Shown here in pieces: positions 3,646 to 23,379 of a stretch of 24,505 nt of DNA; position 1 is the first letter of the stretch; the number at the start of each line of letters is the position of its first letter. The DNA is taken from positions 8,473-32,977 of the IMG/VR virus record IMGVR_UViG_3300030106_004348; one strand, written 5' to 3'. The translations under genes and the position numbers were made by a program. Under the pieces are notes generated by a model, which was given only the letters and a program-made list of their open reading frames with translations, ran no database searches and was not told the origin of the DNA. The DNA is from a virus.

Positions 3646-4761
3646 ATGTCTGAATATAGTAAGACAGCACTGGTGCTTGGTGCTGGTGGCTTTATTGGAA
3701 GTCATATGGTTAAACGTTTACGCTCAGAAGGATATTGGGTGCGTGGCGTTGACCTTAAGTACCCTGAGTTTTCTGAGACAGAAGCAAATGAGTTTGTGCA
3801 GGGGGACCTACGTGATGTAGAATTTGTTCGTCGAGTTATTCAATTTAAAGGATATCAAGGCAACTTCTTTGCCAGTGTTCCTTACCGATATATTCGTCCC
3901 TTTGATGAGATCTATCAGTTTGCTGCTGATATGGGTGGTGCAGGTTTTGTTTTTACTGGTGAGAACGATGCAGACATTATGCACAACTCTGTGTCTATCA
4001 ATCTGAACGTTCTTGAAGAGGTTCGTAAGTTCAACGGGACCTTTGATGGTAAAGAGAATGGTACTGAGTGTGTCAGACCGTTTCTAGACTATCAGACTAA
4101 GATTTTCTACTCTGGTTCTGCTTGCATGTACCCAGAGCACAATCAACTGGACCCTGATAACCCTGATTGCCGTGAAGAATCAGCATACCCCGCCAACCCA
4201 GACTCAGAATATGGATGGGAGAAACTATTCAGTGAGCGTCTCTACTTTGCTTACAACCGTAATCATGGTATTCCTGTCCGTGTTGCCCGCTATCATAATA
4301 TCTTTGGTCCCGAAGGAACCTGGGACGGTGGAAGAGAAAAGGCACCGGCTGCAATCTGCCGCAAAGTCGCTTTCCTCCCAGAGTCGGGTGGAGCAATTGA
4401 GGTGTGGGGAGATGGCCTACAGACTCGTTCCTTCCTGTTCATTGATGAATGCATCGAAGCAACTAGAAGACTGATGGATAGTGACTTCATGGGTCCTGTA
4501 AACATTGGATCTGAGGAGATGGTTACTATTAACGAGTTGGTTGATACTGCTGCTCGTGTTGCTGATAAGGAAGTTCAGAAGATTCATATTGATGGTCCTC
4601 TTGGTGTTCGTGGACGTAATTCTAATAATGATATCATCCGTAAAGAACTTGATTGGGATTATTCTCAAACACTGGAAGAAGGTATTCGTAAGACTTATAA
4701 TTGGATTAAATCTCAGATTAAAAAATCTGAACTATATGTTCCATTTCATCATTCGGTATGA
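3646..4761 (+). CDS. GDP-mannose 3,5-epimerase-like SDR (GDP-L-galactose synthesis)
   Basis: This 371-residue extended SDR has the NAD-binding GAGGFIG at residues 12-18 and the catalytic YxxxK at Tyr189/Lys193. It closely follows the plant GDP-mannose 3,5-epimerase pattern: AADMGG with GF, the active-site Cys160 in GSACMYPE, Lys232 in GGREKAPAA, the stretch GDGLQTRSFLFIDE and GVRGRNSNND. GME double-epimerises GDP-D-mannose to GDP-L-galactose (and GDP-L-gulose). Length agrees with plant GME (about 375). It is the first gene of the operon, 25 bases after the promoter's -10 box, and overlaps the next gene by ATGA. Twenty-one of 25 arginines use CGN, unlike its immediate neighbours. A related epimerase acting on another GDP-hexose cannot be excluded. 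Confidence 0.88.
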   Translation: MSEYSKTALVLGAGGFIGSHMVKRLRSEGYWVRGVDLKYPEFSETEANEFVQGDLRDVEFVRRVIQFKGYQGNFFASVPYRYIRPFDEIYQFAADMGGAGFVFTGENDADIMHNSVSINLNVLEEVRKFNGTFDGKENGTECVRPFLDYQTKIFYSGSACMYPEHNQLDPDNPDCREESAYPANPDSEYGWEKLFSERLYFAYNRNHGIPVRVARYHNIFGPEGTWDGGREKAPAAICRKVAFLPESGGAIEVWGDGLQTRSFLFIDECIEATRRLMDSDFMGPVNIGSEEMVTINELVDTAARVADKEVQKIHIDGPLGVRGRNSNNDIIRKELDWDYSQTLEEGIRKTYNWIKSQIKKSELYVPFHHSV

Positions 4762-5459
4762 GTAAATTAGGACCTTATGCTTCTTATAGTAAGGAGACTG
4801 GATATGCCACATGGGATCATCCAACAGCAGAGTATGTTGGTATTTTTGAAAGAATAAACGTTGATATTAATGGAATCTTACATGTTGGTATGTGGGATTT
4901 TGTTGAGCATGATTGCTACACTAAATTAGTTGGGACTAATGTAATTGGTGTAGAGGCAAACAAATTTGTTTATGAAACAATCTCCAAACCTGTTGCTGAT
5001 AGATGTGGATATAAGTCTTTTAATGCCTGTGTTTATAGTGAGGATGGTTTAGAGAAACAATTTTACTTAGCAAATGATTCTTCTAGTCTATCTCCAGTTA
5101 GTAAAAACTATGTGAAAGTAGTTACGAAAAAATTATCTACACTTGTTGAAGAAAATAATATAGATATGACTCAATATGATTTTCTAAATATCGATGCTGA
5201 AGGATCTGAACTTGAAATTTTAAAAGGATTTGAAGATCATCTGCCGTATATAAATGTTATTGACTTAGAAACATCATATGATGACAGAAATAATACTGGA
5301 GCATCACATGACACTATAGTTGAGTGGTTGAATGATAGAAATTTTACTCTCACAGAGATGTCTGACTCTTATAACTATGAGAGGTGGGGAGATTCTGTAT
5401 TTGTGAGAAATAATAAAGAGTTGATCCCCTTTAACAATGACAAATATTTATTGAAATGA
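4758..5459 (+). CDS. FkbM-family SAM-dependent methyltransferase
   Basis: The 233-residue product ends its Rossmann core with FLNIDAEGSELEILKGF (residues 142-158), the hallmark FkbM motif (Asp146, Glu148, Gly149, Glu151). The N-terminal part GILHVGMWDFVEHD corresponds to the SAM-binding start, where the usual GxNxG is replaced by VGMWD, followed by NVIGVEANKFV with the acidic SAM-ribose ligand. FkbM enzymes O-methylate sugars and polyketides; in this operon the substrate is probably a hydroxyl of the glycan or its precursor. The ATG at 4758 couples to the GME stop (ATGA). All six arginines are AGA/AGG, in sharp contrast to the gene upstream. Confidence 0.85.
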   Translation: MSKLGPYASYSKETGYATWDHPTAEYVGIFERINVDINGILHVGMWDFVEHDCYTKLVGTNVIGVEANKFVYETISKPVADRCGYKSFNACVYSEDGLEKQFYLANDSSSLSPVSKNYVKVVTKKLSTLVEENNIDMTQYDFLNIDAEGSELEILKGFEDHLPYINVIDLETSYDDRNNTGASHDTIVEWLNDRNFTLTEMSDSYNYERWGDSVFVRNNKELIPFNNDKYLLK

Positions 5460-6259
5460 AAAGAAAATTTAACCTTATAGGTAATACTTTTACCCATCTT
5501 ACGAACGGAAATAAAGGATACTCGGTTCACGGTAAAGAATCCAAACATATTGAGTGGGTTTCCAGTGGTGGAGATGCAACTTTTTATATTGATGATACTA
5601 TTAATAATGGTATTAACGATTCACGAAGTGGTGCTAAGTACTTATGGCTTCTTGAATCAAAGAACATTAAAAGGGGTCTTGTTGAAAGTATCATCAAAAA
5701 TCAAAAATTAGTTGAAGACACTTATGATACTATTTTTACTCACGACCAAAGACTTCTCACTCTAGGAGATAAGTATAAGTGGGTTCCCGCACAAGGTTTT
5801 TGGATAAAAGATCCAAAAATTTATGAGAAATCAAAAATGATTTCTATGATTTCCTCAAATAAAAGAATGTGTGATGGTCATGTCACAAGACTTGAGTGGG
5901 TTGAGAGAATTGGAGAACAACTTGATCTATATGGTCGTGGATTTAATGAAATCTCTGATAAAGAAGAGGGACTATGCGATTATATGTTCTCTGTTGCAAT
6001 TGAGAATGGTCAGTACGAAACATATTTCACTGAAAAAATTCTTGATTGTTTTGCAACTGGCACCATTCCTGTTTACCTTGGAGCACCAGATATTGCAAAT
6101 CATTTCAATAAGGATGGTATTATTGATCTAACTGAGGAGTTTGAAGTTTCTGAAGACATCTATTATAGTAAAATAGATGCCATTCAGGACAATTTAGAGA
6201 GAGCAAAGAAAATGGAAGTTTTAGAAGACTTCATCTGGCAAAATTATTTCGGAGAATAA
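5456..6259 (+). CDS. GT10-family (alpha-1,3/1,4-fucosyltransferase-like) glycosyltransferase
   Basis: The 267-residue protein carries the GT10 donor-binding motif at residues 178-212: FSVAIENGQYETYFTEKILD, then CFATGTIPVYLGAP, with Glu183, Asn184, Tyr190, Glu193 and Lys194 matching the FENS...YxTEK...GxVPVxxG pattern. GT10 enzymes move L-fucose from GDP-L-fucose to acceptor sugars and some accept GDP-L-galactose. No signal peptide or anchor is seen, so it is cytoplasmic like bacterial GT10s. No gene for making GDP-L-fucose (GMD) is visible in the window, while a GDP-L-galactose-forming epimerase is encoded two genes upstream, so L-galactose may be the sugar transferred (inference). The start overlaps the previous stop (ATGA). 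Confidence 0.85.
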   Translation: MKRKFNLIGNTFTHLTNGNKGYSVHGKESKHIEWVSSGGDATFYIDDTINNGINDSRSGAKYLWLLESKNIKRGLVESIIKNQKLVEDTYDTIFTHDQRLLTLGDKYKWVPAQGFWIKDPKIYEKSKMISMISSNKRMCDGHVTRLEWVERIGEQLDLYGRGFNEISDKEEGLCDYMFSVAIENGQYETYFTEKILDCFATGTIPVYLGAPDIANHFNKDGIIDLTEEFEVSEDIYYSKIDAIQDNLERAKKMEVLEDFIWQNYFGE

Positions 6260-6262
6260 ATC

Positions 6263-6823
6263 ATGGTTGACAAGGAAAAGTATTATCAAGAATCAATTTC
6301 ATCTGGTATCCCAACTTATTACTTTCTTATGAGGGATTTTGGTATTGGTAAAGATTGTAAAAATTTTGTAGAGACTGGAACTTATCTTGGAGATGCAGTT
6401 CAATACGCATTAGATCAAGAATTTCAACAAATACTTAGTTGTGAAATGATGGAAGATCGTTATGAATATTGTATGAATAAATTTAAGGAGAATGATAATG
6501 TTAGTCTTTGGCTTGCAAAATCTGATGATTGTTTCTCTGAAATGGTAGAATCTCTTAAAGAAAAGTCTTGTTTCTGGTTAGATGCTCATGATGAAGGTGG
6601 AGGGATTCCAACTTTTAATGAACTTGATGTGATTGCAAAACATGATATTAAAGATCATACAATTATCATTGATGATATTCCTGTTTACTTCCCTGGAAGA
6701 GAAGAATTATTAGAACAAAAACTCTACTCAATTAATAAAGACTATAATATTGAGTATTTCCCTGTAGATATGGGAAGTAAAGGTAGAATTGATGGATATG
6801 AACTCGTTGCATATATCGAATGA
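6263..6823 (+). CDS. predicted class I methyltransferase-fold protein
   Basis: The 186-residue product has a Rossmann-like layout: FVETGTYLGDAVQYALD (glycine-rich loop after the first strand), ILSCEMMEDRYEYC (acidic end of strand 2), then FWLDAHDEGGGIPTFNELD and HTIIIDDIPVYFPG. The WLDAH(x)GG...ELxxI pattern is shared by small methyltransferase-like proteins often found in polysaccharide loci. The substrate is unknown, and catalytic activity cannot be confirmed from sequence. GGAG about 10 bases before the ATG at 6263 is a good ribosome binding site, and the gene follows a 3-base gap. Its stop overlaps the next ATG (ATGA). Confidence 0.65.
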   Translation: MVDKEKYYQESISSGIPTYYFLMRDFGIGKDCKNFVETGTYLGDAVQYALDQEFQQILSCEMMEDRYEYCMNKFKENDNVSLWLAKSDDCFSEMVESLKEKSCFWLDAHDEGGGIPTFNELDVIAKHDIKDHTIIIDDIPVYFPGREELLEQKLYSINKDYNIEYFPVDMGSKGRIDGYELVAYIE

Positions 6824-7527
6824 GACCTTGTTTAATAAAACAACCTGCGGGAATTGGTGACGTATTCTTCTGCCAGAAGATTGCTAGAGTGATGATGGAA
6901 AAAGGTTATGATGTTATATGGCCTTTGCGACCAGATATTCATTGGATTCAGAGATATATTAAAGATATTTGGTTTCCCATGACTACGGATGACTTTCCTA
7001 TGAAAGATATTTACTTTCGTGGTGCTGGTGCTGTGATTGAGGAGAATGGTGCTTTTATTAGTCTTGCAACTGCAGATATGACTCATAATGATGGTAAGAT
7101 TATGAGTTCAAAGTATGCTACTGTGGGTATTGATTATTCTGATTGGAAAAATTATTTTAAGTTTGAACGTAATTTTGCCAAAGAAGAAGATTTATACTAT
7201 AATGTTCTTGATCTTAAAGAAGATTCTGAATTTATATTGATAAACAATCTTTATAATACAGACATTAGAGATTGTGAATTATTATCACCTAATAATTATA
7301 ATTTACCTGTTGTGGAACTTAAGATCTATGAGGGATTTACCCTTTTTGACTGGTGTAAAGTTATTGAAAGAGCAAATAGTGTCTTTACAATCAATACATC
7401 GATTAATTATCTTATTGATGTATTAAAAACATCCTATGAGAGATACGTAATTATTGCACACAGTGAGCAAAACAAGACTGAAATTGATTATCTTTTTAGT
7501 ACACCACATGAAATGATATGCAAATAA
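6820..7527 (+). CDS. putative GT-B glycosyltransferase, GT9 (heptosyltransferase)-like
   Basis: The 235-residue protein begins with IKQPAGIGDVFFCQKIARVM, similar to the GxGD(V/L) motif with which GT9 heptosyltransferases start their N-terminal Rossmann domain, and ends with WCKVIERANSVFTINTSINY, reminiscent of the C-terminal segment that senses the sugar nucleotide. It is shorter than typical GT9 enzymes (about 330-350), so it may be a reduced GT-B enzyme. Transfer of a heptose-like sugar would fit the HldE-type genes further down, but this is inference. It is coupled to both neighbours: ATGA upstream and a 10-base overlap downstream. Confidence 0.55.
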   Translation: MRPCLIKQPAGIGDVFFCQKIARVMMEKGYDVIWPLRPDIHWIQRYIKDIWFPMTTDDFPMKDIYFRGAGAVIEENGAFISLATADMTHNDGKIMSSKYATVGIDYSDWKNYFKFERNFAKEEDLYYNVLDLKEDSEFILINNLYNTDIRDCELLSPNNYNLPVVELKIYEGFTLFDWCKVIERANSVFTINTSINYLIDVLKTSYERYVIIAHSEQNKTEIDYLFSTPHEMICK

Positions 7528-8006
7528 TCGAATATAAGAAAAATTGGTATCCTGAGTTTCAAACTAAAGGAAATGCATCTCAGTTTGCAATTCCTTTTGC
7601 AAAGCATGTCTGTAGTGGAGTTGGATATGATATTGGATGTATGAAGCAGGAGTGGGCATTTCCTGGTTCTACTCCTATTGATCTTGATTTTGATGATCCA
7701 TGGGATGCGGATAATCTCCCACCAATTTTAGTAGATTATATTTTTTCTAGCCATTGTTTAGAACATGTTCCTGATTGGGTTGAAACAATGAATTATTGGT
7801 ATAATCGTATTAAGGGTGGTGGTACATTATTTTTATATCTACCAGACTTCAGTCAAGTGTATTGGAGACCTTGGAATAATAGAAAGCATAGACATGTATT
7901 CACTCCTGATATTATTGAGTCTTACATGTTTGATCGTGGATACAAAAATATATTTGTGTCTGGAGTTGATTTAAATAATTCTTTTATGGTTATGGGGGAG
8001 AAATGA
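7518..8006 (+). CDS. SAM-dependent methyltransferase (Methyltransf_11/23 type)
   Basis: The 162-residue product contains VGYDIGCMKQEW (motif I region), TPIDLDFDD (motif II acidic residue), and YIFSSHCLEHVPDWVETMNY followed by GGGTLFLYLPD, the classic S-HxLEHV(P/D) ... GGxLxxxxP signature of small methyltransferases. The motif I glycine loop is short (GYDIGC), as in other LPS-cluster members. It probably methylates a sugar hydroxyl or amino group of the glycan or a sugar nucleotide. The ATG at 7518 lies within the end of the preceding gene (10-base overlap) and its stop overlaps the next ATG (ATGA). Confidence 0.78.
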   Translation: MQIIEYKKNWYPEFQTKGNASQFAIPFAKHVCSGVGYDIGCMKQEWAFPGSTPIDLDFDDPWDADNLPPILVDYIFSSHCLEHVPDWVETMNYWYNRIKGGGTLFLYLPDFSQVYWRPWNNRKHRHVFTPDIIESYMFDRGYKNIFVSGVDLNNSFMVMGEK

Positions 8007-8827
8007 AAAAAATTGCAATCTCAACTTGGTGTACAGATGATTATGCTATTCTTTTGGGAGTCGAAAAACTTACAAACTCAATTAAATATTTTCATCCAGA
8101 GGTAGATCATTTTATCGTAGATACTAAAATGACTGAGAAAATTCATGAGAATTATTCTTGGATGAAACCTGTATGGATGATGGCACCAACTTGTATGCCA
8201 TTCATTGACGAATATGATATGGTCATTCATTTAGATGCCGATGCTGTTGTTACTGGACCTCTTGATGAGATGTTTAATAGCACTGCTGATGTAATCGGAG
8301 TTAGAAATAATACTAGTAAAAATACGGCAGGAGCTCATAGGGGAATAACAATTTCACATAGTCCTCCTTTTGGTGATGGTAATCCTATTCCAATGCAGCA
8401 GTTTATTAATGCTGGAATGGTTGGTGTAAATAAAAAAGAATTTTGGTATGATTGGCATAACTTAAATGAACAGGTTGCTAAAACTGGAATGAGTGATGAG
8501 CAAGATACTCTTAACAATCTTTTTCATTGGAAAAAATATAATTCAGAAGTTATTGATGTGATGGGAACAGGAGTTTCTTATGGACTTTGTAATGCCTGGG
8601 GAACAGGAAACAATCATTGGGAAAGTTGGTCGCAAATTTACGTAAAACATGATAGACTATACCTTGATGACCCTATAACCGGAGAGGCGATGTGTATTAA
8701 GGTAATGCATCAAGCAGGTGGTGGTGCTGCCATAGAACATAATAAATCATTGGGATTTAGAAATTGGTTGTCCTCTGTCGTATCTAATGAAGTTAATGAT
8801 TACTTGAACGAGGTTCAAAATGGTTGA
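8003..8827 (+). CDS. GT-A glycosyltransferase with DxD motif (GT8-like)
   Basis: The 274-residue protein has the nucleotide-sugar transferase fold: ISTWCTDDYAILLGVEKLTN at the N-terminus, YDMVIHLDADAVVTGPLDEM with the metal-binding Asp78-x-Asp80, then QQFINAGMVGVNK (typical N-AGV/GM motif of GT8) and DEQDTLNNLF. A late His in KVMHQAGGG could be the third metal ligand. The donor sugar is unknown. It is cytoplasmic by composition. The gene is coupled by ATGA upstream and overlaps the following rfbH-like gene by 8 bases. A non-GT8 member of the same clan is possible. Confidence 0.75.
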   Translation: MKKIAISTWCTDDYAILLGVEKLTNSIKYFHPEVDHFIVDTKMTEKIHENYSWMKPVWMMAPTCMPFIDEYDMVIHLDADAVVTGPLDEMFNSTADVIGVRNNTSKNTAGAHRGITISHSPPFGDGNPIPMQQFINAGMVGVNKKEFWYDWHNLNEQVAKTGMSDEQDTLNNLFHWKKYNSEVIDVMGTGVSYGLCNAWGTGNNHWESWSQIYVKHDRLYLDDPITGEAMCIKVMHQAGGGAAIEHNKSLGFRNWLSSVVSNEVNDYLNEVQNG

Positions 8828-10091
8828 TATTGAAGCACTTCTTGAAGGTGTAAATCCACCCTACTTTGCCAATAGTAAGTGGGAGCCAGGTAATCCTGTA
8901 TATTATTCTGGTCCTTACTGGGACAATCAGGAGTTGGGAGCAGCTGTCAACGGACTTTTAAATGGTAAGTGGTTGGCATCTGGTGAGAAAGTTTATGAGT
9001 TTGAGAAGAAGTTCTCTAAACAATTTAACAAGGGTCACTCCTTGATGGTGAACTCTGGTAGTTCTGCCAATTTGGTAATGATTGCTGCTCTAAAAAAACG
9101 GTTTGGTTGGCAGGATGGTGATGAGATCATCGTATCATGCGTTGGTTTTCCTACCACTATTGCACCTATTGTTCAGAACGGATTAAAACCTGTTTTTGTT
9201 GATATTGACTTCACTGATCTAAACTGGAACATTGAAGAGATTGAAGAAAAAATTTCCACTAAGACCCGTGGTATCTTCTCTTCACCCGTTCTTGGCAATC
9301 CTTACAATGTTGATGAGATCCTAGACATCTGTGATCGTAATAAGATTATGTTGATCTCAGATAACTGTGATAGTCTGGGTAGTAAGTGGAATGGTCGTTT
9401 CTTAACCGACCACTCTATTGCTGCCTCTTGTTCTTTCTATCCTGCTCATCACATTTGTACTGGTGAAGGTGGTATGATTTCTTCTGATGATGAGGAACTA
9501 ATCAATATCGCACGTAGTCTGGCATGGTGGGGTCGTGATTGTTATTGTGTGGGTCAGCAAAATCTACTTGCTTGCGGCACTTGTGGCAAACGATTTGATA
9601 AGTGGATTGAGCATTACGATGGCATTATTGACCATAAGTATGTGTATTCTCAGATGGGATATAATCTTAAACCTATGGACTTTCAGGGTGCTATCGGCAC
9701 TGTTCAATTGACTAAGCAGGATGAGATTCATCGTCTTCGTCGTAAGAATAAAGTTCTCATGCAAGAAATTTTTGAACGTATTCCTGGTGTTCGTAGTGTA
9801 AATGAACTGCCCGAAGCAGAGACCAGCTGGTTTGGTGTTCCTATTATTTGTGATAGTGCAGACACTAAAACTAAACTGACTAAGCATCTGGAAGATAACA
9901 AGGTTCAGACTCGTAACTATTTTGCTGGTAATATTCTAATGCACCCTGGTTATCGTCACCTTGATTATTATCGTAACTATCCGAATGCATGTAAGGTTCT
10001 TGATTTAGTCTTTTTTGTTGGTTGCTCTCCTACCATCACAGAAGACATGATTAAATATGTCGGCACTGTTGTAGATTCTTTTAAAAAATGA
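8820..10091 (+). CDS. rfbH: RfbH-type CDP-4-keto-6-deoxyglucose 3-dehydratase (E1), Fe-S and PMP dependent
   Basis: This 423-residue DegT/DnrJ/EryC1-fold protein has SFYPAHHICTGEGG, where His210 takes the place of the PLP lysine of the aminotransferases, the hallmark of E1 (AscC/RfbH) and ColD dehydratases. It also has the cysteines of the E1 [2Fe-2S] cluster: Cys183 (NCDSLGSK), Cys241 and Cys243 (RDCYC) and Cys255 (CGKRF), with Cys252 nearby; the gap before the last is four residues longer than in Yersinia E1. ColD lacks these cysteines, so RfbH is the better call. The reaction removes the C3 hydroxyl of CDP-4-keto-6-deoxyglucose with an E3 reductase; no E3 gene is visible here and the host may supply electrons. 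All 15 arginines are CGN codons, unlike the AGA-rich genes just upstream. Confidence 0.88.
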   Translation: MVDIEALLEGVNPPYFANSKWEPGNPVYYSGPYWDNQELGAAVNGLLNGKWLASGEKVYEFEKKFSKQFNKGHSLMVNSGSSANLVMIAALKKRFGWQDGDEIIVSCVGFPTTIAPIVQNGLKPVFVDIDFTDLNWNIEEIEEKISTKTRGIFSSPVLGNPYNVDEILDICDRNKIMLISDNCDSLGSKWNGRFLTDHSIAASCSFYPAHHICTGEGGMISSDDEELINIARSLAWWGRDCYCVGQQNLLACGTCGKRFDKWIEHYDGIIDHKYVYSQMGYNLKPMDFQGAIGTVQLTKQDEIHRLRRKNKVLMQEIFERIPGVRSVNELPEAETSWFGVPIICDSADTKTKLTKHLEDNKVQTRNYFAGNILMHPGYRHLDYYRNYPNACKVLDLVFFVGCSPTITEDMIKYVGTVVDSFKK

Positions 10092-11773
10092 GAGTAGCAG
10101 ATTATGTTGTAGACCAAATTTACAAGGCTGGATGTGAACATATCTTTCTTGTAACTGGTGGCGGTGCGATGTTCTTGAATGATGCAATTGCTGCTCATGA
10201 AAAAATTGAACCTATCTGTAATCATCATGAACAAGCATGTGCAATGGGTGCAGTTGCATATGCAAAGTATAAAAATAGTTTGAGTGCTGTTTGTGTTACT
10301 ACTGGGTGTGGTGGAACTAATGCTATCACAGGACTTCTGGACGCATGGCAGGATAGTGTTCCTGTTATCTTTGTCTCTGGTAATGTTAATCGTCCTCACA
10401 TGGCACCAGAGGGTGTTAGGAACCTTGGAGTTCAAGAAGCAAATATCATTGACATTGTGAAACCAATCACTAAGTATGCGACTGTGGTTGAAGATCCTGA
10501 GATGATTGATGAGGTAATGAAAGATGCGATTCGGATTGCTACTCACGGTCGTCCTGGCCCTGTATGGATTGACATTCCTATGGACGTACAAGGTGTTGAA
10601 TGTTTTAGTATTGAGGATGCTGTAAAGAGAGCAAAGAGACCTTTGATTCTTGCTGGCAACGGTATCAACTGTGCTCAAGCAAGAGAAGAGTTTAAGTTCT
10701 TTGTTGACCAAACAAACATTCCCGTTGTTACCTCATATAATGGTGTTGATCTTATTTCCTCTGATGATAGAAATTTTGTTGGTAGAGTTGGAGTAAAAGG
10801 AACTCGTGCTGGTAACTTTGCAATGCAAAATTGTGATCTACTTCTTGTGATTGGTTGCCGTCTTCCTGTTCCTGTGACTGGATATAACTATAAAACTTTT
10901 GCCAGAGAAGCAGAAGTTATTGTTGTTGATATTGATAGGGACGAACACTCAAAGGATACAGTAAAGATTGATAGATTTATTAATCGTGATGCAAAAAACT
11001 TTCTTGATCTTTATTGGTTTGATCGTAGAAAGAGTGATTGGAATTATCTTTGTGAAGAGTGGAAAGAAAAATGGCCAGTATGTCCTACAGAGAATCCATC
11101 TGAAAAAGTAGATCTCTATTACTTCATGCAGTGTCTGAATACTCTCAAGAGAGACGATGATGTTGTAATTTCTGATGCAGGTTCTGCATTCTATGTTTGT
11201 TCTCAAGCAACCACAATTAAAAATCAACAAAGATACATCACCTCTAGTTCTCAAGCAGAGATGGGATTTACTATTCCTGCCTGTATCGGTGCTGCATTTG
11301 CTAAAGATGGTGACGTGATTGGAGTGACCGGTGATGGGTCATTTATGATGAACCTACAAGAACTTCAAACTATTATTCATTACAATCTTCCAGTTAAACT
11401 ATTTGTGTGGAACAATGATGGGTATCTTTCCATCAGAACTACACAGAAGAAGTTTTTTGAAGGTAGGGAGATTGGAACTGATAAATCTAGTGGAGTATCG
11501 ATTCCAAATATTCGTAAGGTGACTGAAAGTTTCGGAATTGAATATGCTCTTGCTGATGCTGATGGATTGGAAGGAGCAATTAGATACACTCTAGATTATC
11601 CTGGTCCCGTTGTTTGTGAAGTTTTCTGTGAAAGATGGCAGGAAGTTGTTCCTACTCTGATGGGAAAAAAGAATGAAGACGGAACCATCACTGCAAAACC
11701 TTTAGAAGACATGTATCCTTTCTTGTCTAGAGAGGAATTTTATGATAATATGATTGTGGAGCCTTTAGACTGA
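10088..11773 (+). CDS. ThDP-dependent enzyme of the acetolactate synthase type (YerE-like candidate)
   Basis: The 561-residue protein has all three domains of acetolactate synthase-like enzymes: a PYR domain with the catalytic Glu48 (CNHHEQACAMGA), a middle domain (about 190-320), and a PP domain with the ThDP motif GDGS...NN (Gly415-Asp416-Gly417 to Asn442-Asn443). Ordinary members make acetolactate from pyruvate. In Yersinia, YerE of this family adds a two-carbon acetyl unit from pyruvate to C4 of CDP-3,6-dideoxy-4-keto-glucose, the product of the RfbH/E3 step. The gene here directly follows rfbH with an ATGA overlap, so a branched-sugar role is attractive, but is inference. A biosynthetic role with the next gene, panB-like, is the main alternative. 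Whether it binds FAD cannot be read reliably. Confidence 0.85.
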   Translation: MRVADYVVDQIYKAGCEHIFLVTGGGAMFLNDAIAAHEKIEPICNHHEQACAMGAVAYAKYKNSLSAVCVTTGCGGTNAITGLLDAWQDSVPVIFVSGNVNRPHMAPEGVRNLGVQEANIIDIVKPITKYATVVEDPEMIDEVMKDAIRIATHGRPGPVWIDIPMDVQGVECFSIEDAVKRAKRPLILAGNGINCAQAREEFKFFVDQTNIPVVTSYNGVDLISSDDRNFVGRVGVKGTRAGNFAMQNCDLLLVIGCRLPVPVTGYNYKTFAREAEVIVVDIDRDEHSKDTVKIDRFINRDAKNFLDLYWFDRRKSDWNYLCEEWKEKWPVCPTENPSEKVDLYYFMQCLNTLKRDDDVVISDAGSAFYVCSQATTIKNQQRYITSSSQAEMGFTIPACIGAAFAKDGDVIGVTGDGSFMMNLQELQTIIHYNLPVKLFVWNNDGYLSIRTTQKKFFEGREIGTDKSSGVSIPNIRKVTESFGIEYALADADGLEGAIRYTLDYPGPVVCEVFCERWQEVVPTLMGKKNEDGTITAKPLEDMYPFLSREEFYDNMIVEPLD

Positions 11774-11774
11774 T

Positions 11775-12641
11775 ATGCCTGCTGACAATAAAGATAAGGT
11801 AACTATTCTAAAGTTACGCAAACAAAAACAGAACAATGTAAAGACGGTTGGTGTAACTGCCTATGATTATCCTCAGGCATTGATGGCAGACAACGCGGGT
11901 GTTGATTGGATTCTGGTTGGCGATTCTCTTGGTATGACCACATTGGGATATAAGAGCACCATTCCAGTCACTATGGATGATATGCTGCGCTCTGCTAGAG
12001 CAGTAGCAAGAGGTTCAAGTCGTGCTTTTACTGTTGGCGATCTGCCTTATATGTCCTATCAGGTTTCTAACGAAGAAGCAGTTAGAAATGCTGGTCACTT
12101 TATTCAGGCTGGTATGGATGCAGTAAAGGTAGAGGGTTGTATGGTTGAGAGAGTCAAAGCAATCTGCGATGCTGGTATTATGGTGATGAGTCATCTTGGA
12201 CTAACTCCTCACACTCGTGCTAAACTTGGTGGGTATCGTGTTCAGGGTAAGACTGCAGATCAAGCAAAAGTTATTCTTGATCAGGCTCTGCGTTTACAAG
12301 ATGCTGGATGTACTTTCCTTCTTCTTGAGGGTATGCCTAGAGAGTCTGCTGAGATGATTGCAACTAACCTTGAGATTCCAGTATATGGTATCGGTGCCGG
12401 TGATAGGGTTGATGGTCAGTTGGTTATTATGCATGACTTGGTTGGACTCTTCTGGGAGTTCAAATCTAAGTTTGTGAAAAGATATTGTGAGGCAGGTCAA
12501 ATGATTCAGTCTGCTCTCACTGAATATGTAAATGAAGTTCGCGATGTCAAGTTCCCATCTCAAGAAAACTTCTATGAGATTAAAGATGAAGAACTTGAGA
12601 AACTATTAGGTCAAGGTGCAGGATGGAAGCATGACAAGTAA
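11775..12641 (+). CDS. panB: PanB-like ketopantoate hydroxymethyltransferase
   Basis: The 288-residue protein shows the PanB signature throughout: VTAYDYPQA (residues 27-35), WILVGDSLGMTTLGY with Mg ligand Asp50, TVGDLPYMSY with Mg ligand Asp89, DAVKVEGC, VMSHLGLTPHT, GGYRVQGK, LLLEGMP with the catalytic Glu, and YGIGAGDRVDGQ. PanB transfers a hydroxymethyl group from 5,10-methylene-tetrahydrofolate to 2-ketoisovalerate in pantothenate synthesis. Finding it inside a glycan operon, one base after an acetolactate synthase-like gene, suggests it may build a branched carbon unit for a sugar or acyl decoration rather than, or besides, coenzyme A. It overlaps the next gene by 11 bases. It is slightly longer than the E. 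coli protein (264). Confidence 0.88.
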   Translation: MPADNKDKVTILKLRKQKQNNVKTVGVTAYDYPQALMADNAGVDWILVGDSLGMTTLGYKSTIPVTMDDMLRSARAVARGSSRAFTVGDLPYMSYQVSNEEAVRNAGHFIQAGMDAVKVEGCMVERVKAICDAGIMVMSHLGLTPHTRAKLGGYRVQGKTADQAKVILDQALRLQDAGCTFLLLEGMPRESAEMIATNLEIPVYGIGAGDRVDGQLVIMHDLVGLFWEFKSKFVKRYCEAGQMIQSALTEYVNEVRDVKFPSQENFYEIKDEELEKLLGQGAGWKHDK

Positions 12642-13479
12642 GAAAATTCTTTTTACTGGCGGCAATGGTTTTATTGGCCGTCAGATTATTCCTTTTTTGG
12701 AGAGAGATGGGCATTTAGTAGTTCGACCTAGATCAACACAAGTTCGTCTTGAGGTTGATAAAGAGGTTGCTACTTTATTTGAAAATGGACAACAATATGA
12801 TGCCATTATTCATGGTGCGATTGTTGGGGGTAGAAGAGACACTGATGATAGTGCAAAAGTTCTTGAAATTAATCTCAGAATGTTTGAGACTTTGTATAAG
12901 TATGCTACTCGTTCCACGTCTAAGTTTATCAACTTAGACAGTGGTGCTTCATATGGTAGACCATCTTCAGTGCCTGAACCAACCACTAAAAATTTTGGAG
13001 ATGTAATCCCTAGGGATCCATATGGACTATCAAAATATATCATTGCTAAACGTGTATTGAGTAGTTCAATTGGAGTGAACCTTCGTGTTTTCGGGTGCTT
13101 TGGTACTCACGAAGAACCATCTAGATTTTTTAATACCAACATCAATAACTATATTAATCATAGACCTATTCGCTTGCTCAAGGATAGGAAGATTGATTTT
13201 ATCTACGCAAACGACTTGTATAAAATTGTCAAATATCATCTTGATGATAATTATGCACCGGTCGATATGAACTGTGTGTATTCCGAGAAGTATATGCTTA
13301 GTGACATTGCCAAAATAATTAATCGAATGGGAGATCATGAAGTTGATGTTATCATGGAAGGTCAGTATCCAGAGTTTCCATATTGTGGAAAATCACATAC
13401 TCTTCCTATCAAATACGATGGTTTAGAAAAAGGAATTCGTGAGTGTTATGAAACATATCTTTGTCAACGGAACGTTTGA
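12631..13479 (+). CDS. NAD(P)-dependent SDR, GDP-fucose synthase (WcaG)-like sugar reductase/epimerase
   Basis: The 282-residue protein has the Rossmann motif TGGNGFIG at residues 9-16 and a catalytic YxxxK in RDPYGLSKYIIAK, preceded by a Ser in LDSGASYGRP. The pattern of GASY(D/G)RP and (K/D)YGxSK is typical of WcaG-like and dTDP-4-keto-rhamnose reductase-like proteins from LPS loci. It could reduce the 4-keto group of a sugar made by the RfbH/ThDP pair, the role of YerF in yersiniose synthesis, but substrate is not visible in the sequence. I choose the ATG at 12631, preceded by GGATGG; an in-frame GTG at 12616 would only add five poorly placed residues. It overlaps the next gene by 32 bases. 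Confidence 0.75.
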   Translation: MTSKKILFTGGNGFIGRQIIPFLERDGHLVVRPRSTQVRLEVDKEVATLFENGQQYDAIIHGAIVGGRRDTDDSAKVLEINLRMFETLYKYATRSTSKFINLDSGASYGRPSSVPEPTTKNFGDVIPRDPYGLSKYIIAKRVLSSSIGVNLRVFGCFGTHEEPSRFFNTNINNYINHRPIRLLKDRKIDFIYANDLYKIVKYHLDDNYAPVDMNCVYSEKYMLSDIAKIINRMGDHEVDVIMEGQYPEFPYCGKSHTLPIKYDGLEKGIRECYETYLCQRNV

Positions 13480-13849
13480 CATCCTGCATCCAGGACACGT
13501 TCAACTTCTTAACTATGCTAAGTCTTTGGGAGACTCTTTGACTGTTGGTATCGATAGTGATAGAAGAGTAAGAGAAAAGAAGGGTCCAACCAGACCAATA
13601 AACAGCGTAGGTGATAGGGCGTACATGCTTCAAAATTTAGAGGCTGTTGACTACATCGTAATCTTTGATAGTGATGAAGAGTTGGAGCGTTGTATAAAAA
13701 CAGTAAAACCTGATATAATGGTTGTAGGATCTGACTGGAAAGATAAGTCAGTTATTGGTGGAATGTATGCCGCTGAGTTGAGGTTCTTTGATAGAATAGA
13801 AGAGTATGCAACAACAAAAACAATTCAAAGTATTATTGATCGGGGATAG
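13448..13849 (+). CDS. RfaE2/HldE C-terminal-type sugar-phosphate nucleotidyltransferase
   Basis: The 133-residue protein has the cytidylyltransferase-like signature FVNGTFDILHPGHVQLLNYA (HxGH nucleotide-binding motif), followed by KGPTRPINSVGDRAYML and DIMVVGSDWKDKSVIGG. The KG(P/x)TRP and VGSDYK...GG elements are those of the adenylyltransferase half of HldE, which makes ADP-D-glycero-beta-D-manno-heptose, rather than of TagD. The ATG at 13448 is chosen; an in-frame GTG at 13439 with AAGGA upstream is possible. It overlaps the previous gene by 32 bases and the kinase gene by 44. Its conserved C-terminus (EEYATTKTIQSII) is encoded in that overlap, so both frames are truly coding there. Confidence 0.85.
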   Translation: MKHIFVNGTFDILHPGHVQLLNYAKSLGDSLTVGIDSDRRVREKKGPTRPINSVGDRAYMLQNLEAVDYIVIFDSDEELERCIKTVKPDIMVVGSDWKDKSVIGGMYAAELRFFDRIEEYATTKTIQSIIDRG

Positions 13850-14564
13850 TTGTGCTGATGAATATGTGTATGGTGTCTGTGAAAGATTAAATCCTGAGGC
13901 ACCTGTACCTATTCTCAGAAGGACAAGAGTTGATACTCAGAGAGGTATGGCTTTGAATGTGCAGCAAAATCTTTTATCATTTGATATTCAGGTTACTCTT
14001 ATAACTCAAGGGGAACCCATCATTAAACGTCGATTTATTGATGAGAGGTATAATCAACAACTATTGAGAGTTGATATTGAGGATGAGATAAAACCTTTTA
14101 ATGGTAACTTACCTAATGAGGATTTTGATGCTCTTGTCATATCAGACTATGATAAAGGTTTTCTAACATCTCAAAGAATATTTGAATTGGTTGAGTGGTT
14201 TGATGGACCTATCTTTATTGATAGTAAGAAGACGAATCTACCAGTTGACTATGCATACATTAAAATCAATGATGATGAATATTCTAAACTTGATGAAGAA
14301 CTGAAAGTCTCACCCAACCTGATTGTCACCAAGGGAGCACAGGGTGTTGACTATCAAGGTAAGAATTATCCAGCAGTTGGAGTGAGTGTCTTTGATGTTT
14401 GTGGTGCTGGCGACACATTTTTATCTGCACTTGTTTACTTTTACTTGAGATATGGTAAGATAGAAACTGCTATACCATATGCCAATAAAGCAGCTGCGAT
14501 TGCTGTAACGCATTTTGGAACTTATGTATTACAAAGGAGGGACATTCATGAGATATGTGATTGA
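13806..14564 (+). CDS. PfkB-family kinase, HldE N-terminal-type (RfaE1)
   Basis: The 252-residue protein begins VLLIGDSCADEYVYG, continues with LNPEAPVPILRR, which is the characteristic substrate region of HldE kinases, and carries the PfkB C-terminal motif DVCGAGDTFLSAL with catalytic base Asp203. VTKGAQGVDY is the usual pre-catalytic strand. HldE kinase phosphorylates heptose 7-phosphate at C1. It is shorter than the E. coli domain (about 318), with a missing stretch after MALNVQQNL where family members have a longer substrate lid. In most bacteria kinase and nucleotidyltransferase are fused kinase-first; here they are separate, in reverse order, and overlapping by 44 bases. The overlap downstream is 17 bases. 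Confidence 0.82.
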   Translation: MQQQKQFKVLLIGDSCADEYVYGVCERLNPEAPVPILRRTRVDTQRGMALNVQQNLLSFDIQVTLITQGEPIIKRRFIDERYNQQLLRVDIEDEIKPFNGNLPNEDFDALVISDYDKGFLTSQRIFELVEWFDGPIFIDSKKTNLPVDYAYIKINDDEYSKLDEELKVSPNLIVTKGAQGVDYQGKNYPAVGVSVFDVCGAGDTFLSALVYFYLRYGKIETAIPYANKAAAIAVTHFGTYVLQRRDIHEICD

Positions 14565-14901
14565 TATTGATGGAACTATTTGCACTCCTGGTGAAGGATG
14601 TGGCAATTGTCAGTATGAAAATGCAACTCCAAAGAAGGAAAGGATTGCCACAATTAATGAATTGTATGATGAAGGTAATTACATCATCTATTTCACTGCC
14701 AGAGCAATGGGTAGATCCAGTGATAAACCCTATGAAGAAGCACGGGAGATCGCGCATAAATTACTATACCCACTCACTAAAGCACAACTAGATATGTGGG
14801 GATGTAAGTATCATGAATTAATTATGGGTAAACCACACGCAGATATGTTCATTGATGATAAAGCATGGCCGGACCATGTATTTTTTAACGATAGGAAATG
14901 A
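14548..14901 (+). CDS. HAD-family phosphatase of the polysaccharide-locus type
   Basis: The 117-residue protein starts RYVIDIDGTICTPGEGCGN, with nucleophile Asp6 and acid/base Asp8, motif II Thr in IIYFTARAMG, and motif III/IV in GKPHADMFIDDKAW. It contains WGCKYHELIMGKP, shared with the second HAD gene at 18552. Minimal HAD phosphatases like this are common beside HldE-like and nucleotidyltransferase genes and could do the GmhB step (removing the 7-phosphate of heptose bisphosphate). A textbook Shine-Dalgarno site, AAGGAGGG at about 14534-14541, sits 7 bases before the ATG at 14548 and fixes the start. This is the strongest ribosome binding site in the operon. Confidence 0.8.
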   Translation: MRYVIDIDGTICTPGEGCGNCQYENATPKKERIATINELYDEGNYIIYFTARAMGRSSDKPYEEAREIAHKLLYPLTKAQLDMWGCKYHELIMGKPHADMFIDDKAWPDHVFFNDRK

Positions 14902-15251
14902 CATCAGAGATCAAACATGTCCCCAAAGGATGGGGATATGAAAAATGGATCGTCAATACTGAAGAGTATTGTGGAAAACTCTTATTTTTTAATGAGGGTA
15001 AAAGGTGTTCCTGGCATTTTCATAAGTTAAAAGACGAGACCTTTTATCTTCAATCAGGAAAAATTTTATTATACTATGGAGAAACTGATAATCTTGAAGG
15101 TGCAAAAGATAAGGTTTTAGTTCCAGGAGATAAGTTTCACATTCACCGTGGACTCAGACATCAGATGATTGCTATCGAACCATCTGAATTATTTGAATTC
15201 TCCACACAACATTTTGATGAAGACAGTTACAGAGTAAAGAGAGGAGATTAA
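14898..15251 (+). CDS. cupin-fold sugar-modifying protein
   Basis: The 117-residue protein is a single cupin barrel: metal ligands His40, His42 and Glu47 in CSWHFHKLKDETFYLQSGK and His88 in HRGLRHQM. The N-terminal KGWGYEKWIVN resembles the entry strand of type II mannose-6-phosphate isomerase/GDP-mannose pyrophosphorylase C-terminal domains and their stand-alone relatives. Such cupins in polysaccharide loci isomerise or epimerise sugar phosphates. It sits between a HAD phosphatase and a double nucleotidyltransferase, so it may act on a sugar phosphate before activation. Coupled upstream by ATGA and followed by a one-base gap. Confidence 0.75.
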   Translation: MTSEIKHVPKGWGYEKWIVNTEEYCGKLLFFNEGKRCSWHFHKLKDETFYLQSGKILLYYGETDNLEGAKDKVLVPGDKFHIHRGLRHQMIAIEPSELFEFSTQHFDEDSYRVKRGD

Positions 15252-15252
15252 T

Positions 15253-16818
15253 ATGAAAGTTGTTATTCCAATGTCAGGTCAAAGCAGTAGATTTACCTCT
15301 GCTGGATATATGACACCAAAACATCTCATTGAGATTGATGGTAAGAAAGTCATTGAGCACATCATTGATCTCTATCCTAAAGATAGTGAGTTTGTTTTTA
15401 TCATTAATGATAAACATAAAGAAGAAACTGATGTAGTCAAAATATTAACGAAGGCTGCACCAGACTCTACAATCGTTACAATACCTTCTCACAAGAAGGG
15501 TCCAGTTCATAGTGTCCTGCAAGCAAGTAAATACATTGATGATTTTGAACCAGTCATAGTTAATTACTGTGATTTTTCAATGTATTGGGACTATGATGAT
15601 TTTGAAGAGTTTGTTGTGCAGACTGAGTGTGATGGATGTGTAGTTTGTTACACTGGATTCCATCCACACATGCTTGGTAGTGATAATTATGCATTCTGTA
15701 AAACAGGAGACAGTAATCAAATATTAGAGATTAGAGAGAAGCAACCTTTTACTGCTGATAAGATGTCGGAGTTTGCTTCTACTGGCACTTACTATTTTAA
15801 GAAAGGTAAGTACGTCAAACACTATTTTCAACAGTTGATTGATGAGGACATCAATATTAATGGGGAGTATTATGTAAGTCTGGTTCATAATCTACTGAAT
15901 AGAGATGAACTAACAAATCTTGTATATGAAATTCCTGTGATGCTTCAATGGGGAACACCATTAGATATGAATATGTATCTGCAGTGGTCAAATTATTACA
16001 AGGCAGTTCTTGAAGGAAATAAACCACTAAAGATTAAAAATTGCGTGACTGCTTTACCGATGGCAGGTGCCGGTAGCAGATTTAAGTCAGATGGATTTGC
16101 TGTTCCTAAACCATTCCTAATTGTTAATGATAATTATATGGTTGATCAAGCAGAGTATTGCCTACCACGCACGGATAAGACAGTATATGCTTGTCTAAAG
16201 TCTCATATGAGTATGCTTCCTTTAGAGGACTACAGTCATGTTGTATGGATTGATGATGTTCTTGATGGTCAAGCTCGCACCACTGAAAGGATTATGAATG
16301 AGATTGATGATGACACATCAATTCTTTTGTCTGCTTGTGATAATGGTGTATTGTATGACTCAGATAAATTTGCAGATCTAATTGAGGATCCACAGAATGA
16401 TATCGTTGTTTGGAGTTATAGAAACAATTATACGTCATATCGTAATCCTGATATGTATTCTTGGTTGGATGTGGATGGTGATGATATTAAGGGCGTTTCT
16501 GTTAAGAAATTTACAGGTGGTGACCCTATAAATGAGTATGCCATCGTTGGTACAATGTTCTTCCGTAATAAGGATGTATATCTTGAATCTCTGAAGCAGA
16601 CATATGAAAAGGATATTAGAACTAATGGTGAGTTCTATGTTGATAGTATTTTAAATGAGGCAATCTCACTTGGATATAGAGTTAAGAATTTTGAGGTTGA
16701 TCATTATATCTGTTGGGGAACACCTGATGACTTGAAGACATATAGATACTGGCAAAAGTTCTTTGCATCCGTAAATTGGCATCCTTATGACTATAGAAAA
16801 GATTACCTTACCTATTGA
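15253..16818 (+). CDS. tandem two-domain sugar-phosphate nucleotidyltransferase
   Basis: The 521-residue protein contains two NTP-transferase domains in a row. Domain 1 (about 1-255) starts VVIPMSGQSSRFTSAGYMTP with the catalytic Lys in TPKHLIEIDG. Domain 2 (about 263-510) starts TALPMAGAGSRFKSDGFAVP with PKPFLIVND. Each continues with the family's order of elements and ends with a WGTP motif (MLQWGTPLDM; YICWGTPDDL). The family activates sugar 1-phosphates with UTP, CTP, GTP or dTTP. Domain 1 has GQSSRF in place of GxGxRF, which may alter nucleotide choice. Fusion of two such domains is unusual; they may make two sugar nucleotides or work as a catalytic/regulatory pair. GAGGAG before the ATG is a strong ribosome binding site. 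Confidence 0.85.
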   Translation: MKVVIPMSGQSSRFTSAGYMTPKHLIEIDGKKVIEHIIDLYPKDSEFVFIINDKHKEETDVVKILTKAAPDSTIVTIPSHKKGPVHSVLQASKYIDDFEPVIVNYCDFSMYWDYDDFEEFVVQTECDGCVVCYTGFHPHMLGSDNYAFCKTGDSNQILEIREKQPFTADKMSEFASTGTYYFKKGKYVKHYFQQLIDEDININGEYYVSLVHNLLNRDELTNLVYEIPVMLQWGTPLDMNMYLQWSNYYKAVLEGNKPLKIKNCVTALPMAGAGSRFKSDGFAVPKPFLIVNDNYMVDQAEYCLPRTDKTVYACLKSHMSMLPLEDYSHVVWIDDVLDGQARTTERIMNEIDDDTSILLSACDNGVLYDSDKFADLIEDPQNDIVVWSYRNNYTSYRNPDMYSWLDVDGDDIKGVSVKKFTGGDPINEYAIVGTMFFRNKDVYLESLKQTYEKDIRTNGEFYVDSILNEAISLGYRVKNFEVDHYICWGTPDDLKTYRYWQKFFASVNWHPYDYRKDYLTY

Positions 16819-17896
16819 GTTTTGGAACAAGGGAAGGACTAAGACACTCTGCCCTGAGGATGAGAACGGCCGAGTTCTTGAATGTGCTTTCTTCTCCTCC
16901 ATTCAATTTACTGGACACTCAAAGCATTATCCAATGCCTTTGATGTATTCTCATAAGGACAAGAAATTACGCTTGCCAACCATTGAGCGGTTCATGTCTT
17001 TAGGTAGGGGAACTGTGTATGAGGAGTGGATGCAATATGATATGGAGTTATGCTCATCGTGGTCGTGTTGTGATATTCCAGTATTCTACTTTGTATATAA
17101 TACTGCAAACTATTTTCATTTCATTTATGACACCCTCCCATATCTCTACACATACTTTGAGGGTAAGAAGATACATCCAGATTTAAAATTACTGATGAGT
17201 CCTGCTGAGGATAAGGATGATCTGTATCCCTTTGTTTGGGAAACATTAAAACTACTTGGTATAACCAGAGAGGATGTTATTTTCCTGAAGCCGGATGTCA
17301 TCTATAACTATGTCTTGGTTGGGTCTTCTCTGACTCATGGTGGTCTCTCAACTAAACCTCCCCATAGATTTACTTTTGATATTATCAATAGACTTACAGG
17401 AGACTATAAGGGTCCTGAGAGGGTTTACATATCGCGTAGAACATGGACGCACAATAAACTTGATAACATTGGTACAAACTACACTGAAAGGCGTAGGTGT
17501 ATGAATGAAGACCAGATGGCACAGATCTTTAGTGTGTATGGATTTAAAGAAGTGTTCTGTGAGAACTTGACAATGAAGGAAAAGATTGGTATCTTTAATT
17601 CAGCAAAGTATGTTGCTGGTCCGATTGGTGGCGGAATGGCTAATGTTCTATTTTGTCCACCAGAGACCAAAGTTCTATCAATTAATAGTCCATTATTTTT
17701 TGACGTTAATGATAGATTGAGACATGCTATGGAACACACTCAACTGAGTCACTTTGATTACACCAGTTTTACTGATGAAAAAGAAGAGACAGTTGACGAC
17801 TTGGGATCATTATCAATCTCTGGAGGAATGAATTCTCCATGGGAAGTAGATCTAAATAAACTATCCAAAATCTTAGATGAATGGTTAACCTCTTAG
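16787..17896 (+). CDS. GT61-family glycosyltransferase (DUF563)
   Basis: The 369-residue protein carries the GT61 pattern: YNTANYFHFIYDTLPYLYTY (Asn108-Tyr109-x-His111), VYISRRTWTHNKL, then the C-terminal signature NEDQMAQIFSVYGFKEVFCE with LTMKEKIGIFNSAKYVAGPI and GGGMANVLFCPP. GT61 enzymes transfer pentoses, hexosamines and other sugars from UDP donors; the donor here is unknown. Length is normal for bacterial members. The ATG at 16787 lies 32 bases inside the previous gene. No signal peptide or membrane anchor is present, so it is cytoplasmic or membrane-associated. Confidence 0.85.
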   Translation: MTIEKITLPIEFWNKGRTKTLCPEDENGRVLECAFFSSIQFTGHSKHYPMPLMYSHKDKKLRLPTIERFMSLGRGTVYEEWMQYDMELCSSWSCCDIPVFYFVYNTANYFHFIYDTLPYLYTYFEGKKIHPDLKLLMSPAEDKDDLYPFVWETLKLLGITREDVIFLKPDVIYNYVLVGSSLTHGGLSTKPPHRFTFDIINRLTGDYKGPERVYISRRTWTHNKLDNIGTNYTERRRCMNEDQMAQIFSVYGFKEVFCENLTMKEKIGIFNSAKYVAGPIGGGMANVLFCPPETKVLSINSPLFFDVNDRLRHAMEHTQLSHFDYTSFTDEKEETVDDLGSLSISGGMNSPWEVDLNKLSKILDEWLTS

Positions 17897-18555
17897 AATT
17901 AGCACATGCACTTGGACCTTACGCAATTTGCGGTGAGGGAAATGTGTCAGCTAAAGCAGAAGACGAATATCAAACTCTTTTTTATATTAAGGCAAGTGGA
18001 ACTTCTTTAGACACTTTGGAGAAAGATCAACTCGTTGCTTGTAAGATGAGTGGTGTTCCCTTTGATTCACTTGGACCTAAACCAAGTATTGAGACTGGAT
18101 TTCATGCATGGATTTTGAGAGAGTTTGGAGATATTAAATTTATAGCACATACTCACCCACTCAAAACAATGCAGGTAGTATGTTCAGAACAAATTCATTC
18201 ATTTGCTGAACATAGATTATTTCCGGATCAGGTTGTGAGGAATGGCGCAAAGTCTTGTGTCGTTCCTTATGCGATGCCAGGTAGACCTTTGCTTGATGAA
18301 ATAAAGAAGAGTGTTCTTGTATTTGTGGAAGAGGAGGGATACTTTCCCAAATTGATACTGTTACAAAATCATGGTATAATTGTAGCATCTGCATCTGCTA
18401 AAGAATGTATCGCATCTACAATGATGTGTGAGAAGTCTGCAGAGATTTTTGTTGGGTCTAAGATTCTTGGACAAACAAACTTCCTTACAGAAGAACAGGT
18501 CAGTGAAATCGATAAGTGTCCCAGCGAAGAACGCAGGAGAAAAATGTATCAATGA
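17881..18555 (+). CDS. class II aldolase/adducin-family protein (FucA/RhaD-like)
   Basis: The 224-residue protein shows the class II aldolase pattern: GEGNVSAK (18-25) and KASGTSL (37-43) bind the phosphate, SIETGFH with the catalytic Glu71, and the zinc ligands His90 and His92 (AHTHP) and His164 (LQNHGI). Family members cleave or form sugar-phosphate C-C bonds (L-fuculose-1-P aldolase, L-ribulose-5-P epimerase, MtnB-like dehydratase). All metal ligands are present, so it should be active. In this operon it may build an unusual sugar by aldol addition or recycle a precursor. It overlaps the previous gene by 16 bases and is joined to the next by ATGA. Confidence 0.85.
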   Translation: MVNLLELAHALGPYAICGEGNVSAKAEDEYQTLFYIKASGTSLDTLEKDQLVACKMSGVPFDSLGPKPSIETGFHAWILREFGDIKFIAHTHPLKTMQVVCSEQIHSFAEHRLFPDQVVRNGAKSCVVPYAMPGRPLLDEIKKSVLVFVEEEGYFPKLILLQNHGIIVASASAKECIASTMMCEKSAEIFVGSKILGQTNFLTEEQVSEIDKCPSEERRRKMYQ

Positions 18556-18863
18556 AAGTGATTTATGTTGATATTGATGAAACAATTTGTCATCGAGAAT
18601 CTAATACTGACTTTGGTGTGACTCATGATTATACAAAGGCAGAACCAATTCAGGAGAATATTGACAAGATCAATAAACTTTATGATGAAGGAAATACCAT
18701 TGTATATTGGACAGCCAGAGGAAGTAGAAAACAGATTGACTGGACTAATCTAACAGAACAGCAGTTATCCGATTGGGGTTGCAAATATCATGAACTCCGC
18801 ACGGATAAACCGTTCTATGATCTTTTTATTGAGGATAAATCATTGCGTATTGAGGAAGTATGA
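18552..18863 (+). CDS. second HAD-family phosphatase
   Basis: The 103-residue protein starts MKVIYVDIDETICHRESN, with nucleophile Asp7 and Asp9, followed by TIVYWTARGSRK (motif II) and DKPFYDLFIEDKS (motif III/IV). It is a paralogue of the protein at 14548: both share the LYDEGN...Y(F/W)TAR and WGCKYHEL...KP segments. The start is the ATG at 18552, overlapping the aldolase stop (ATGA); an upstream in-frame TTG/GTG extension would only translate the aldolase tail in another frame. It probably removes phosphate from a sugar phosphate, perhaps the product of the aldolase immediately upstream. Confidence 0.8.
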   Translation: MKVIYVDIDETICHRESNTDFGVTHDYTKAEPIQENIDKINKLYDEGNTIVYWTARGSRKQIDWTNLTEQQLSDWGCKYHELRTDKPFYDLFIEDKSLRIEEV

Positions 18864-20049: not shown

Positions 20050-20057
20050 ATATACAA

Positions 20058-23375: not shown

Positions 23376-23379
23376 TAAG

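Follow-up and report, generated by a model that had tools for sequence, protein, structure and literature searches.

The window considered here, the whole 24,505-nucleotide stretch of DNA that was analysed, is part of a 33-kb virus record and carries four consecutive plus-strand genes between positions 8820 and 13479. An RfbH/E1-type PMP and [2Fe-2S] 3-dehydrase (8820..10091; 423 aa) is overlapped, through an ATGA, by a putative YerE/JanthE-like ThDP carboligase (10088..11773; 561 aa). A ThDP-linked member of the PanB (ketopantoate hydroxymethyltransferase) family (11775..12641; 288 aa) starts one base past the ThDP stop, and is in turn overlapped by 11 bases by an extended SDR (12631..13479), for which the ATG at 12631 is the likeliest start. 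All four lie within a surface-polysaccharide cluster (3646..24213, plus strand) of nucleotide-sugar epimerases, glycosyltransferases, a split HldE and nucleotidyltransferases. Parts of the window share approximately 80% DNA identity with Synechococcus phages, and the virus is thus likely a T4-like cyanophage; the surface-sugar cluster is partly common to these phages.

Family assignments for the core of the locus are solid, with the exception of the RfbH equivalog score. The RfbH protein matches DegT with 253 bits and reaches 368 bits against the NCBIfam equivalog model, under its cut-off of 423, and is thus related but divergent. The hallmarks of E1 are nevertheless kept: equivalents of the Asp, Cys193, His220, Cys251, Cys253 and Cys261 are all present, with His replacing the PLP lysine at E1 position 220 and none of the four Fe-S cysteines missing. 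By these residues the protein is an E1-type 3-dehydrase. Across 80 viral loci with a related PanB, described below, a 3-dehydrase of the His type (E1-like or ColD-like) was found within the locus DNA examined in 69, and in none of the 80 did that DNA contain a Lys-type aminotransferase only. The weaker RfbH matches (26-31%) were considered as ordinary aminotransferases and this was ruled out, as all carry His, none carries Lys and their appearance is ColD-like. The SDR (PF01370, 81 bits) has TGGNGFIG and YxxxK motifs in its translation and recurs beside ThDP and PanB genes in other phages. Neither a glucose-1-phosphate cytidylyltransferase nor a CDP-glucose 4,6-dehydratase scored above cut-off (TIGR02622, TIGR02623) in the window record and 11 related phage records, so both the sugar acceptor and the nucleotide it carries are assigned tentatively; these genes may be supplied by the host or by unsequenced parts of the genomes.

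The ThDP protein contains all three TPP_enzyme domains and, in alignment, Glu48, Gly415-Asp-Gly417 and Asn442-443, corresponding to the catalytic Glu and the GDG/NN motif. General models label it an acetolactate synthase, with scores far under the AHAS cut-offs. Compared with sequences in the PDB, it matches JanthE best (389 bits, versus 233 for the best AHAS), and a Foldseek search with its predicted model (mean pLDDT 72) also ranks JanthE first (E 4.6e-46, versus 4.0e-38 for AHAS). The position of the AHAS acceptor Arg is Pro, as in JanthE (P293 in the numbering of the JanthE paper), and that of the AHAS donor-pocket Trp is Thr in both proteins. Three of five JanthE pocket residues are kept, the equivalents of Val121 and Tyr297 among them, while Tyr268 is replaced by Lys and Lys567 by Thr. 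JanthE (PDB 8rph, 8rpi, 8rpj) is thus the nearest solved relative, with the pocket Val, Pro and Tyr and a C-terminal DGT...PLED segment in common; it differs in having a CDG rather than a GDG ThDP motif and Tyr/Lys where the window protein has Lys/Thr, at 38% identity in the alignment. A comparison of active sites with YerE and acetolactate synthase had been proposed in a first-pass annotation of this DNA; the residues set against JanthE and AHAS, together with the predicted model, support a YerE/JanthE-like ligase rather than an acetolactate synthase.

The PanB-adjacent ThDP enzymes of other phages are diverse, with identities to the window protein down to approximately 30%. Arg is retained at the AHAS Arg position in 28 distinct phage ThDP sequences, and one phage ThDP protein encoded beside PanB scores equally with an AHAS and with JanthE. 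On account of this diversity the reaction may not be alike everywhere, and the PanB-linked enzymes with Arg may, judging by this residue, act on other substrates. These sequences, along with the general AHAS similarity of the window protein, also lend something to a different explanation, in which a catabolic or biosynthetic enzyme of the acetolactate type would act with PanB to yield free ketopantoate-like or branched 2-hydroxy acids as acyl decorations. The missing Arg and Trp, the scores far under AHAS cut-offs and the adjoining 3-dehydrase and SDR, which indicate a sugar, make this very unlikely for the window.

The first-pass annotation had also drawn attention to the row of RfbH, ThDP, PanB and SDR genes and proposed that the first three be sought in other phages and bacteria. 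Coordinates and family matches confirm the row, and in an IMG/VR scan with the window PanB each of the 80 loci found had ThDP and PanB as immediate neighbours, in one gene order or the other, an arrangement which on this basis is not attributable to chance. As a guard against bias, a second IMG/VR scan was led by the E. coli PanB, many contigs being common to both scans. A ThDP gene occurred within 400 bp of PanB in 77 of its 80 contigs and within 1.0-1.8 kb in two more. In these 79 contigs, the PanB that has a ThDP gene next to it or close by also carries the residue pair Leu212 and Ile214, and the sole contig without ThDP is also the sole one with a housekeeping-type PanB. Curated phage records contained no PanB-ThDP pair, and their PanB matches were host-like sequences or unannotated fragments. 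One such match, in Microcystis phage MaAM05 (L226; MW495066.1 254372-273139), was set aside as bacterial in appearance, since the gene adjoins panC and sufBCDS in what resembles bacterial DNA inside a phage record. In three phages with the reversed gene order (L027:8446-9996, L028 and L050), a B12-binding radical SAM protein is encoded next to the pair; it could methylate the sugar or its branch.

The PanB of the window is full length, matches PF02548 with 325 bits and exceeds the cut-offs of the PanB NCBIfam models (317 against 272 and 278 against 207). It belongs to the same fold family as E. coli PanB (1m3u) and retains all of the catalytic and metal residues (D45, S46, D84, K112, E114, H136 and E181). 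The two differ at three positions, however: housekeeping enzymes carry Ile or Val at 212, Val at 214 and, in E. coli, Ile at 200, whereas the window protein has Leu212, Ile214 and the Tyr200 found in most ThDP-linked PanBs. The Leu212 and Ile214 pair was present in 82 of 82 ThDP-linked PanBs and in none of 73 housekeeping PanBs drawn from cyanobacteria and their relatives, the phylum of Thiomicrorhabdus, E. coli and others. Position 212 is a specificity position in E. coli PanB, where the variants I212A and I202A alter the substrate range (PMC7611260). The signature residues suggest that ThDP-linked PanBs act on a substrate other than ketoisovalerate and, being bulkier at 212 and 214, perhaps on a smaller one. 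This bears on a further suggestion of the first-pass annotation, that the ThDP and PanB enzymes make ketopantoate-like acyl groups: it came near to the role of donor maker argued for below, while the pocket residues speak against ketoisovalerate as the starting compound.

The ThDP-linked PanBs form one clade, so the signature may in part reflect common descent. Sister to this clade, at weak support (0.51), is a bacterial PanB, likewise ThDP-linked, from a Gastranaerophilales genome (L167) that has a second, ordinary PanB as well. When the ThDP genes of 192 genomes from the order of this organism were surveyed (at most 30 loci examined), PanB lay beside ThDP only in L167. Three YerE-like ThDP genes occur in that locus (L167:3333-11770): two flank PanB, and the third adjoins genes for a 4-hydroxy-2-oxovalerate aldolase and an acetaldehyde dehydrogenase.

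In an oxygen-minimum-zone virome, panB was the most abundant vitamin-related viral gene, and viral pantoate transferases were suggested to be pantothenate genes (PMC8940887). By analogy, the PanB of the window could be an auxiliary metabolic gene boosting the pantothenate and CoA levels of infected cells, and its scores over curated cut-offs and complete set of catalytic residues are what such a role would call for. We nevertheless regard this role as highly improbable. The 73 housekeeping PanBs compared lack the residue pair described above, and the phage PanBs differ from them in context too, lying almost invariably beside a sugar-branching ThDP gene and without panC: the pantoate ligase (PF02569) was absent from 17 of 17 phage records of up to 194 kb, some of which may be partial.

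What PanB contributes may be judged from the genes which take its place. Among phage ThDP genes of a subclass that lacks a PanB neighbour, 13 of 14 adjoin a NeuB-like synthase gene, which suggests that the donors of the encoded enzymes are longer, NeuB-made 2-oxoacids. In 80 bacterial loci with ThDP genes of the same family, frequent neighbours include a class I/II aminotransferase, an HpaI-type aldolase, an HMGL-like aldolase, a NeuB-like synthase and PanB, as well as 4-hydroxy-2-oxovalerate aldolase with acetaldehyde dehydrogenase. The enzymes that replace PanB are all able to release a 2-oxoacid, the substrate of YerE-like ligases. Of 76 bacterial loci, 39 have a 2-oxoacid-forming gene no more than two genes away from ThDP, as do 25 of the 26 closest; among genes farther off the share is 1.5% (odds ratio 13, p ~3e-18, for gene categories chosen after inspection). 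This exchange is one reason why PanB is better supported as the maker of the donor; the other is that ErwE, a YerE-like enzyme, uses 4-hydroxy-2-oxobutanoate (PMC12247030). Whereas the YerE donor is pyruvate, ErwE does not accept it and favours longer donors with functional groups, among them 4-hydroxy-2-oxobutanoate, -pentanoate and -hexanoate (PMC12247030). E. coli PanB, for its part, converts 2-oxoacids including pyruvate, with formaldehyde, to 4-hydroxy-2-oxoacids in vitro (PMC10127515). A product which PanB is able to make is therefore a donor of the ErwE type.

We consequently read these four genes, carried by marine cyanobacterial viruses, as a module for a C4-branched 3,6-dideoxyhexose in which PanB supplies the 2-oxoacid donor to the ThDP ligase, and place the probability of this reading at about 0.6. 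RfbH would remove the C3 hydroxyl from an NDP-4-keto-6-deoxyhexose, giving the NDP-4-keto-3,6-dideoxyhexose acceptor. PanB would transfer a one-carbon unit from methylene-tetrahydrofolate onto a small 2-oxoacid, likeliest pyruvate or 2-oxobutyrate, to form what is probably 4-hydroxy-2-oxobutanoate or else its 3-methyl homologue. The YerE-like enzyme would decarboxylate this product and attach the resulting hydroxyacyl group at the C4 ketone, forming a tertiary alcohol, after which the SDR would reduce the ketone of the branch. Glycosyltransferases of the cluster would then place the branched sugar in a surface glycan, probably altering receptors of the infected cell. The analysis establishes what the genes are, that their catalytic residues are conserved, that PanB and ThDP are strictly linked, that these PanBs have a signature of their own and that other 2-oxoacid-forming enzymes stand in for PanB elsewhere. 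From this gene association we infer the substrates, products and steps, their order and the biological role.

The same genes would permit the reverse order, in which the ThDP enzyme attaches a YerE-like acetyl branch from pyruvate and PanB then puts a hydroxymethyl group on the methyl of that branch, or on the keto sugar. The resulting 3-hydroxypropanoyl branch would be identical, and the window enzyme shares three of five pocket residues with JanthE, which accepts pyruvate. Direct action of PanB on a keto compound had been one proposal of the first-pass annotation, and with a keto sugar in this place it is the less supported order: the metal and carboxylate site of PanB, all residues of which are kept, binds a 2-oxoacid; positions 212 and 214 are bulkier, whereas a nucleotide sugar would presumably need a more open site; and the enzymes found in place of PanB beside related ThDP genes make free 2-oxoacids. 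We consider it unlikely.

With PanB as donor maker, the locus is most likely a variant of the YerE and ErwE pathways, and its enzyme set matches a C-branched 3,6-dideoxysugar pathway, as had been anticipated. As in yersiniose A synthesis in Yersinia pseudotuberculosis, an RfbH/E1-type dehydrase would feed a ThDP enzyme (in YerE, a flavoprotein) that acylates the C4 ketone, with later reduction of the branch; there, however, pyruvate is the donor and no donor-making enzyme is reported, whereas the window has PanB between ThDP and SDR. ErwE (erwiniose, Pectobacterium atrosepticum) and MMAR_2332 (caryophyllose) resemble the window enzyme as YerE-like ligases preferring hydroxylated 2-oxoacids; the source of their donors is unstated in a review of these enzymes, which does not describe PanB as such a source (PMC12247030). 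Bacterial YerE-like clusters likewise place the ligase beside a 2-oxoacid-forming enzyme, often together with an RfbH-type dehydrase. They differ in the donor-making enzyme (4-hydroxy-2-oxovalerate aldolase, HpaI-type aldolase, aminotransferase or NeuB-like synthase) and in often having CDP-sugar genes within the same locus. The open-access literature searched yielded no described pathway with PanB beside an RfbH-ThDP pair, in agreement with the first-pass annotation, and we know of no sugar with the predicted branch in marine Synechococcus.

More broadly, we see an even chance that a distinct PanB subfamily, found in phages and at least one bacterium, is a folate-dependent donor maker for C-branched sugars, wiring one-carbon metabolism into surface glycan diversity, and that YerE-like ligases are as a general rule encoded beside the enzyme which makes their 2-oxoacid. 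If so, the donor specificity of such a ligase could be predicted from the adjoining gene. The pathway predicts a specific new branched sugar and an origin for the functionalised 2-oxoacids that ErwE-type enzymes require as donors, and its enzymes could provide a one-pot route to tertiary alcohols. Phage genes labelled panB may serve sugar pathways rather than CoA metabolism, and their interpretation as vitamin B5 genes (PMC8940887) merits re-examination.

Several further features of these loci may be recorded. The NeuB-like synthase beside the different YerE-like ThDP subclass of phages occurs in L124-L137 (for example at L137:8953-9993, and in L125-L128), and one is found near bacterial YerE-like ThDP genes in L185, L194, L199, L203, L209 and L213. 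Two families of 173 and 252 aa, encoded between ThDP and SDR in phages of the NeuB type (L125:10913-11431 and L126:11743-12498), had no Pfam or NCBIfam match. A family of approximately 308 aa directly follows bacterial ThDP genes in 10 loci (among them L143:11803-12726 and L155:11788-12684), and the members checked had no NCBIfam match (L143) and no Pfam match (L155). In the window itself, HldE is encoded at 13439-14564 as two overlapping genes, the adenylyltransferase-like part ahead of the kinase part, and the 521-aa nucleotidyltransferase at 15253-16818 apparently consists of two NTP-transferase-like halves, each opening with a similar G-x-x-S/G-R-F loop.
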